Positions 15,602 through 18,025 of a stretch of 35,209 bases of DNA are shown here, piece after piece; the stretch's first letter is position 1; each line of letters begins with the position of its first letter. The notes under the pieces were generated by a model. That model made no database searches. It had not been told where the DNA came from and saw only the letters and a program-made list of their open reading frames with translations. A program made the translations under genes and the position numbers. Source of the stretch: Acaryochloridaceae cyanobacterium RU_4_10 (GTDB lineage Bacteria; Cyanobacteriota; Cyanobacteriia; Thermosynechococcales; Thermosynechococcaceae); NCBI GenBank assembly GCA_012032135.1, contig JAAURS010000005.1, positions 1 through 35,209 of the forward strand. Reading direction: 5' to 3'.

Positions 15602-15871
15602 ATGGCCCTTCTGCAAGAGAAGAAACAAGAAATTATCGGTGCGTATCAGGTTCATGAGACTGATACGGGATCTGCTGACGTACAAGTGGCAATGCTGACG
15701 GAGAGAATTTCTCGCTTAAGCGATCACCTCAAGACCAACAAAAAAGATCACGGTTCGCGTCGCGGTCTGTTAAAGATGATTGGGCAACGCAAACAACTGT
15801 TGTCTTACATCATGAAGCAAGACAACGATCGTTACCGCCAACTCATTACCCGTCTCGGGATTCGTGGTTAG
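15602..15871 (+). CDS. rpsO: 30S ribosomal protein S15
   Basis: [70 protein letters not shown]; start at 15602 not 15533. Confidence 0.97.
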
Positions 15872-15878
15872 GCCAAAT

Positions 15879-16366
15879 ATGGCTAAATCTAATCCATCTC
15901 AAACGCCTAAGGACAAAGGGAATGGCTTTCAGTCATTGCCCTTTGAGCCGAAGGTTAAGCAAAAAGAGCCGACTGCAAAAAAGTCACCTAAGCCTCCTCG
16001 TTCGCCTAAAGTTGCCCAAAAAGCACAAGGTCGGTCTGGGTCTGCTCAGAGCATTCCTGACGTGGTTAGCAAACGGATGGCGAAGCGGATGGCTCTCTTT
16101 TGTGGTGTGCCAAGCTTGTTGGGTGTGGTAACGTTTCCAACTAGCTATTTCCTCTTTCAGAAAGGGGTCGAACTGCCAAACGTAGCAGTCCTGCTGGTCA
16201 GTCTTGGTTTTTGGGGTTGGGTGTACTGGGGCTGAGCTATGGTGTTCTATCGGCATCTTGGGAAGAAGAGATTGCTGGCACTGCGATCGGTTGGAAGGAA
16301 TTTACGGTGAATGTTGGGCGGGTTTTTGAAAGCTGGAAGATGGCCCGCAACCAACAAAAATCCTAG
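15879..16366 (+). CDS. PAM68 family (DUF3464) photosystem II assembly protein, frameshifted
   Basis: MAKSNPSQTPKDKGNGFQSLPFEPK...SKRMAKRMALFCGVPSLLGVVTF...LPNVAVLLVSLGF; adding one T to the T5 run near 16206-16211 continues as LGLGVLGLSYGVLSASWEEEIAGTAIGWKEFTVNVGRVFESWKMARNQQKS*. Confidence 0.85.
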
Positions 16367-16407
16367 CGTAGTGCTAGACCGCTGTGCGTGGTTGGAGATT
16401 TAGTTAG

Positions 16408-17034
16408 GTGTTTTCTAGCAAAGACCTTACCATTCGCGCCGATATTGCTCCCTTCGACTCCGCTCAGGGAGCAATATCTAGCTGGCTGAGCGGAGCCGAA
16501 GCCAGCGGTAAGTTATTTCCCAGAAATCACCTTATGTCCCTAATGTGTACGCTTAGCCAAATTGCTGAGCAGGCTGTTGCCGCAACCGCTGATGATCCAG
16601 ATGGTGGCCTGAAAATCGACGAACTCTATCGTCTATTAGACGTAAGTGGTACTCAAAACAAGCATATTGCTAATCGACTGAATCGCGATCCAAATGTTTA
16701 CTATTTCCGCCCACGTGAAAGTCCCCTCACAGGTGATGAACCAATCTATGGTCAGTTTTTATCTTTAGCCTACGGCAGCCATGATCCGTATGCCCTTTTG
16801 CAGGACTACGATAATTTGGCGTTGCTTGAAGCATCTATTCTTTCTGATGGCGGTTTTGTTAATCCATTTACCACCTTCTTAATCGCATTTATTGATTTTC
16901 GCGCGGTTTCATATGAGATCACTTATCGTAGCCGTAATAATCCAGTAGTCTTGTTCAACAAACAAAATCAATATGATGGTAGCGATAGCGTTAGAGAAGA
17001 ATACAAGGAACGCCAATTACAATGGCAGCGCTAG
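16408..17034 (+). CDS. Hypothetical protein (start uncertain; MSLMCTLSQIAEQAV at 16534 is an alternative)
   Basis: Open frame with no family recognised; the N-terminal 33 codons are largely made of the hairpin repeat at 16441-16506. Confidence 0.45.
   Translation: MFSSKDLTIRADIAPFDSAQGAISSWLSGAEASGKLFPRNHLMSLMCTLSQIAEQAVAATADDPDGGLKIDELYRLLDVSGTQNKHIANRLNRDPNVYYFRPRESPLTGDEPIYGQFLSLAYGSHDPYALLQDYDNLALLEASILSDGGFVNPFTTFLIAFIDFRAVSYEITYRSRNNPVVLFNKQNQYDGSDSVREEYKERQLQWQR
16441..16506. repeat. Double stem-loop repeat: two hairpins with different stems and complementary 14-nt loops
   Basis: GATATTGCTCCC-ttcgactccgctca-GGGAGCAATATC (16441-16478) followed by GCTGGC-tgagcggagccgaa-GCCAGC (16481-16506); loops complementary at 13/14. 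Confidence 0.9.
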
Positions 17035-17165: not shown

Positions 17166-18025
17166 TTAACTCCCAGCCCCTCCGATCGCAACTGAAGATT
17201 TTTCAGTCACAACACTCTCTCGATTCGCAACGCTGCGCCGCATAGCTTCCACAAATCGGCTGACCCGGATGGGGTCTACCCGATTGGTAACCTGTCCCCC
17301 ACGCTTCAGAGAACTGGCCACAATCGCACCATTAGCCGCTGGAATCAGATCGTGGATATTTTCCCAACTCGCCCCGCTGCCAATAAACAGCGGTACCCCT
17401 TTCGCCGCATCCATCGCTAACTCTAAATCTTCCCGATTGGGAGGCTCCCCGTGCCCCACCCCGAAAGAATAATGCCATCGGCCAGACCCCGTTCGATCGT
17501 TTCCTGCACGGCAGTGGTCAGGTTCGGCGACCCCAACGGACGCGCGTGTTTGACCAGCACATCCGCCAAAATCTGCACATCGCTGCCCAGTTCCCGACGA
17601 TACCTTAATAACTGATGGGCCTGCCCTTCAATCAACCCCTGATCCGTCGCCATCACCCCCGTCAACACATTCACCCGAATGAATTGGGCTCCTACACAAG
17701 CCGCGATCGCCATTGAACTAATCCCATCGTTACGGAGGACATTGATACCCACGGGCAAAGGTACCAAATTCATCACCCGTTGCACGATCAAACTCATTGC
17801 GCTGACCACTGCCGGATCCACGCGATCCTTCGCAAAAGGCGCATCAAAAAAGTTTTCGATGATAATGCCATCCACACCCCCTGCCGCCAGCGCCGCAGCT
17901 TCCTGTTCCGCGCGATCGATGACCACCTTGAGGCTACCGCCCCACCGAGGAGAGGTGGGCAAAGGTAAAAGATGAACGACACCAATAATGGGGTGAGAGG
18001 ACTTAAAGATTTTCTGTAGTACCAC
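17166..18025 (-). CDS. btpA: BtpA family photosystem I biogenesis protein, frameshifted
   Basis: HPIIGVVHLLPLPTSPRWGG, AAALAAGGVDGIIIENFFDAPFAKDRVDP, VNVLTGVMATDQGLIEG; second frame EPPNREDLELAMDAAKGVPLFIGSGASWENI. Joined by adding one G to the G4 run (C4 at 17447-17450 on +). Confidence 0.87.

Follow-up and report, generated by a model that had tools for sequence, protein, structure and literature searches.

Why should two neighboring hairpins carry different stems around loops that are reverse complements of each other? The question is raised by positions 16441 to 16506 of the window, by which we mean the whole stretch of 35,209 nucleotides analyzed. The initial annotation had placed the two hairpins at these positions, and the sequence confirms both the placement and the complementarity of the loops, with a single mismatch between loop 2 and the reverse complement of loop 1. 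It is likely that the hairpins form the interior of a non-autonomous MITE, which carries them as a REPIN-like and SDR-like doublet, and that their common core is a dispersed repeat of the REP/SDR type. The copy in the window is referred to as C266, and its genome (4.48 Mb, 77% complete) as G000. The following features were assigned:

16404..16406, no strand assigned: left target-site duplication (TSD) TTA, read from the sequence; exact TAA/TTA duplications are found at most of those copies that have identical flanking triplets.
16407..16531, no strand assigned: complete MITE-like element of 125 bp, GGTG...CACC, recognized by its TIRs, its TSD and full-length relatives elsewhere and in G002, G008, and G043.
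16407..16431, plus strand: left TIR, imperfect, GGTGTTTTCTAGCAAAGACCTTACC, read from the sequence and paired in the RNA fold.
16441..16478, no strand assigned: hairpin 1, with a 12-bp stem (16441-16452, GATATTGCTCCC; 16467-16478, GGGAGCAATATC) and the loop core TTCGACTCCGCTCA (16453-16466); C58, C238, and C315 have the same or nearly the same stem, around loops that differ or are inverted.
16481..16506, no strand assigned: hairpin 2, with a 6-bp stem (16481-16486, GCTGGC; 16501-16506, GCCAGC) and the loop TGAGCGGAGCCGAA (16487-16500); the stem recurs in G002, G008, and G043.
16507..16531, minus strand: right TIR, GGTAAGTTATTTCCCAGAAATCACC in plus-strand reading, read from the sequence and paired in the RNA fold.
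16532..16534, no strand assigned: right TSD TTA, its last base being the A of the following ATG.

Bacterial MITEs, such as Nezha of cyanobacteria, measure 100-150 bp, have TIRs and a short AT-rich TSD, carry no ORF of their own, and are mostly intergenic. The 125-bp element has no coding capacity of its own, its imperfect 25-nt TIRs pair with each other in the RNA fold, and its TSD is perfect (TTA/TTA). When 191 bp around the hairpins served as the query, the window genome yielded several near-complete copies and many partial ones, and further copies were found in at least four other cyanobacterial genomes (G002, G008, G043, and G045). We extracted 22 copies to compare their ends, TIRs, and flanking triplets. 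The ends read GG...CC, the TIRs are imperfect and span ~25 nt, and the target duplication has a constant length of 3 bp (TAA/TTA), the flanking triplets being identical in 13 copies and different, mostly by one base, in the other nine. Full-length relatives have TIRs, the double-hairpin layout, and TSDs in common, and the family comprises copies at unrelated sites as well as sites without the element, as in a multi-copy MITE. Sites without the element were found by searching the joined flanks of four insertions in G000-G003 and G008. Two insertions of G002 (C7 and C176) have element-free counterparts in the orthologous intergenic regions of G000 and G001; C176 is the clearer case, with conserved genes on both sides, the intergenic region at C7 having diverged. 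For the window copy, G001 contains PAM68 but differs in the downstream neighborhood and gene and thus offers no orthologous site.

Judging from the TIR and TSD anatomy, the element probably owes its mobility to a DDE-type transposase provided in trans. A TIR-pattern search of five draft genomes found no autonomous parent with these TIRs. Two 1.6-kb TIR pairs in G045 were considered as an autonomous element and rejected, as they represent separate MITEs around ordinary genes with no recognizable transposase. In the same genome (loci L212-L221), 127 ends carry the same TIR (TWAGGNGATTTCYNG). The interiors read at these loci are quite different (ACCGGAAGGGCGAAGCATCC...) and form mosaics of small repeats, so that one TIR family encloses several interiors.

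The hairpins had been described as lying in the apparent N-terminus of a hypothetical ORF. This does not hold: the GTG at 16408 falls within the inserted element, and the first ATG past it, at 16534, overlaps the right TSD. For the ORF starting there (16534-17034), directly downstream of the element, we found neither a Pfam or NCBIfam match nor a homologue in 28 relatives, and it is probably not a conserved gene. Neighboring genes in the window encode PAM68, BtpA, ribosomal protein S15, and a member of the squalene/phytoene-synthase family, a gene content that points to a cyanobacterium. The PAM68 (DUF3464) gene (15864-16366) has a frameshift near 16208-16215, its C-terminal half (LGLGVLGLSYGVLSASWEEE...) lying in another frame when compared with the intact gene of G001; this may be an assembly error or a pseudogene. 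A second apparent frameshift within 2 kb affects BtpA (17166-18025), which is split into two overlapping ORFs matching profile positions 3-185 and 184-253. Searches of the window returned no Rfam match and no tRNA or tmRNA.

Small palindromic repeats are common in bacteria, and we investigated how far the 14-nt core extends beyond the element. Pattern searches of the window genome returned 18 exact occurrences of the core TTCGRCTCCGCTCA and none of the reversed-pattern control. The core with its flank is present in 13 of 58 relatives, with stems such as GGGY/RCCC, GCTGGT/ACCAGC, TGTCCCC/GGGGACA, and ACAG/CTGT. A scan of a genome collection for the exact core yielded at least 117 loci, in Bacteroidota, Verrucomicrobiota, Acidobacteriota, Spirochaetes, Chloroflexi, Nitrospirae, and others. 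The core thus recurs across bacteria, as the initial annotation had stated, and its further suggestion that the flanks may be inverted repeats more often than in controls also proved right: with one copy per contig taken from the matches listed, the inner stem was perfect over 3 bp or more for 79 of 114 contigs, whereas in 2000 trials with re-dealt right flanks the number of such contigs averaged 9.3 and never exceeded 21. Stem sequences differ from copy to copy, both between and within genomes, yet remain paired. A literature search for the core sequences returned no paper, which is weak evidence as figures are not searchable, and shorter pieces gave unrelated papers. In this text search, we found no paper in which the present loop core is common to several phyla with free stems.

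Many Bacteroidota copies have the form N3-core-N3'-TGACA. Among the matches listed, seven Bacteroidota genomes each hold 3 to 7 distinct fully paired triplets, 16 overall, these figures being counts of listed variants rather than of all copies, with identical strings partly left out. In six of the seven genomes, the number of fully paired triplets among the listed variants is at least as high as the highest value from 2000 within-genome permutations. The weakest case is G074, where 8 of 16 are fully paired and a permutation reached 9; in G072, one permutation matched the observed 7. Local arrays were observed as well. A Flavobacteriaceae Hp32 contig (L142, 1332-2434) holds 13 core copies in both orientations within 8 kb, several of them regularly spaced, and in G055 (C205, C225, C345, and C373) GGGT-core-ACCCTC hairpins form tandem pairs 40-90 bp apart.

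Cores are also found inserted into cores. Hairpin loops of 14, 38, 62, and 86 nt occur in the window genome, which thus contains all four stages of a series. The 86-nt loop of C70 shortens to 62 nt when one CCC-core-GTCCAAG unit (24 nt) is taken out and to 38 nt when the same unit is taken out again; the 38-nt loop becomes the 14-nt core once another 24 nt, located between TTCGGCT and CCGCTCA, are deleted. The insertion place of these 23/24-nt core-bearing units is the middle of other cores. In G002, a 23-nt version of the unit, with the core TTCGACAAGCTCA, interrupts cores (three exact copies and two variants). G045, a member of another family, has eleven related copies of a 24-nt unit, NC-core-GCACAAGT, which enters the core at the same position but within a GGGT/ACCC hairpin. 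Where copies share flanks, the unit may have inserted once and then been spread with the host repeat, so that there are fewer events than copies. Such insertions into the center of existing cores indicate that the core sequence is, or once was, mobile. Another small insert, TACCCTNCGGGAGGCAAGCCA or similar, lies in the loop core or replaces part of it at L020 (C315), L028 (C235), and L042 (C404). In the window genome, a core-GNACAAG unit is also located between GGCGA and TCGCC arms (L278, L288, and L296), which apparently form hairpins of a third, unrelated family with the unit in their loop.

Loops can be inverted within their stems. C238 and the window copy have hairpin 1 stems that are letter-for-letter identical, with the loop inverted in C238, and in C363 it is the loop of hairpin 2 that is inverted. 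These inversions bear on an earlier suggestion that the two hairpins form a kissing-loop pair. The two window loops can indeed pair, but complementarity is not strictly kept among copies, the inverted hairpin 1 loop of C238 making its two loops near-identical instead. Template switching within inverted repeats has been reported to restore stem pairing, to homogenize arms, and to invert loops (Monttinen and Loytynoja 2022, PMC8794818). Template switching during replication inside the hairpin, together with retention of foldable copies, may explain why the arms remain complementary while drifting and why loops sometimes flip, and is probably the most economical account of both. Arm homogenization and loop inversion are predicted by the published process, which was described for RNA genes, unlike the mobile repeats analyzed here.

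The whole element is predicted to fold much more stably than its shuffles both as RNA (z -5.4) and as DNA (z -4.5), with 0 of 200 shuffles as good in either case. The RNA fold contains the TIR stem and both hairpins, whereas in the best DNA structure the two cores pair with each other. As the two predictions differ, they represent two mutually exclusive folds, as described for REPINs (PMC3116915). The inverted, REPIN-like hairpin doublet would be expected to adopt a three-way-junction fold.

We next consider where the paired arms come from. According to the initial annotation, they could be made by target copying. In such a mechanism, the core would insert alone and a new inverted arm would be copied from the flanking target, giving each site its own stem. 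Stems that vary widely among loci and genomes while being complementary far above chance are consistent with this mechanism, as are the several different paired 3-bp stems held by Bacteroidota genomes. In the MITE family, however, stems are inherited at unrelated sites. The hairpin 2 stem GCTGGC/GCCAGC is present in most copies of G000, G002, G008, and G043, and the hairpin 1 stem changes by lineage, yet is paired or nearly so (GATATTGCTCCC/GGGAGCAATATC in G000; GAGATTGTGCCC/GGGTACAATCTC, with one G-T pair, in G002; GTGCCC/GGGCAC in G008; TTGCCC/GGGCAA in G043). Since the same arms, accompanied by the same TIRs and 3-bp TSDs, are common to different insertion sites, they did not arise by copying of the target. 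Nor are the hairpins present at the element-free orthologous sites (C7 and C176). The two window stems differ because they belong to two different core-bearing hairpins, both inherited with the MITE. The variable triplets of the Bacteroidota copies are located inside a constant outer TGACA and are thus internal to the repeat rather than fresh target, and the nested 24-nt units were inserted without newly made flanking arms. We therefore regard target copying as very unlikely.

Two further explanations start from the folded structure. If the element acted as a functional RNA, for instance in mRNA processing, selection would maintain its structure, and the loops would kiss each other or contact another RNA or a protein. 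This would account for the strong RNA fold (z -5.4), for loops that are complementary in copies of G000, G002, and G008, and for compensatory changes in the stems. Such a role appears improbable given the inverted loops of C238 and C363, the replacement of loops by other small inserts in otherwise similar copies (C315 and C404), scattered positions that vary by species, and a window that has no Rfam match. A REP or REPIN moved by a RAYT, a Y1 tyrosine transposase recognizing the hairpins, is somewhat more plausible but still unlikely. The doublet is inverted, long-hairpin and clover folds are alternatives, G000 and most relatives encode Y1 transposases, and the Bacteroidota copies carry a TGTC-like tag as in CGTC REPs; in addition, GTAG-15 REP dimers of Anabaena variabilis were reported inside long palindromes (PMC3733652). 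Our search does not support RAYT membership, as no core hairpin lies within ~1.5 kb of 30 Y1 loci from 12 genomes, where we found one weak palindromic near-match and one 13-nt near-match. The window hairpins moreover lack a GTAG or CGTC tag, and the unit as a whole has long TIRs and a 3-bp TSD.

A MITE with an inherited hairpin doublet thus remains our preferred reading. We tentatively propose, as a more speculative extension, that the 23/24-nt unit NC-TTCGRCTNCGCTCA-GNNCAAG could be a minimal mobile element that targets the center of its own core. The pan-bacterial core might then be the recognition signal of one widespread, putative enzyme acting on a single-stranded intermediate, and the arms would be remade by template switching, with loop and stem evolving independently. 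The locus family bears on the spread of ~24-nt units and on the upkeep of their perfect stems. It provides three directly testable records: nested insertion is preserved at every intermediate stage within a single genome, loops are inverted inside identical stems, and one loop sequence occurs across phyla with stems that vary freely yet are paired. A loop that serves as a recognition signal would point to a common enzyme acting on single-stranded hairpins.

We compared the element and its core to known systems. The element resembles bacterial MITEs, and by description Nezha, in its size, TIRs, short AT-rich TSD, lack of an own ORF, and mostly intergenic location; it differs from them in its REP-like doublet interior, and no parent IS was found in the five draft genomes searched. 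The repeats SDR1-SDR8 of Nostoc punctiforme, the subject of work by Elhai and colleagues in 2008, are reportedly 21-27 nt long, carry compensatory mutations, are embedded in minitransposons, and are nested within themselves. Our unit resembles them in size, compensatory changes, self-nesting, and minitransposon setting (24-nt steps of 14/38/62/86, the 23-nt version of G002, and a location inside MITE loops). Judged by size and nesting, it is likely that the unit belongs with the SDRs. Unlike them, the 23/24-nt unit comes from a different cyanobacterial lineage, and its core extends far outside cyanobacteria. In REPINs, an inverted hairpin doublet is the dispersing unit and can adopt clover and long-hairpin folds (Bertels and Rainey 2011, PMC3116915). 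The window element has a similar doublet and similar predicted folds, but it also has TIRs and a TSD, and we found no RAYT linkage at the Y1 loci searched. Cyanobacterial GTAG-15 repeats have loops of 9-15 nt and form dimers inside long palindromes, and CGTC repeats were reported without a dedicated transposase (Di Nocera et al. 2013, PMC3733652). As in our system, the GTAG and CGTC REPs are short dispersed hairpins with complementary stem changes, inverted dimers, and dimers nested in longer palindromes, and the TGTC-like tag of the Bacteroidota copies is shared with CGTC REPs. The window hairpins, by contrast, are untagged and reside inside an element with TIRs and a TSD. Going by the descriptions, our repeats are also set apart by a fixed loop and a variable stem, many GTAG families having loops of only 2-3 nt. 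The GTAG-15 repeats, with their 9-15-nt loops and their dimers within long palindromes, represent a close precedent.
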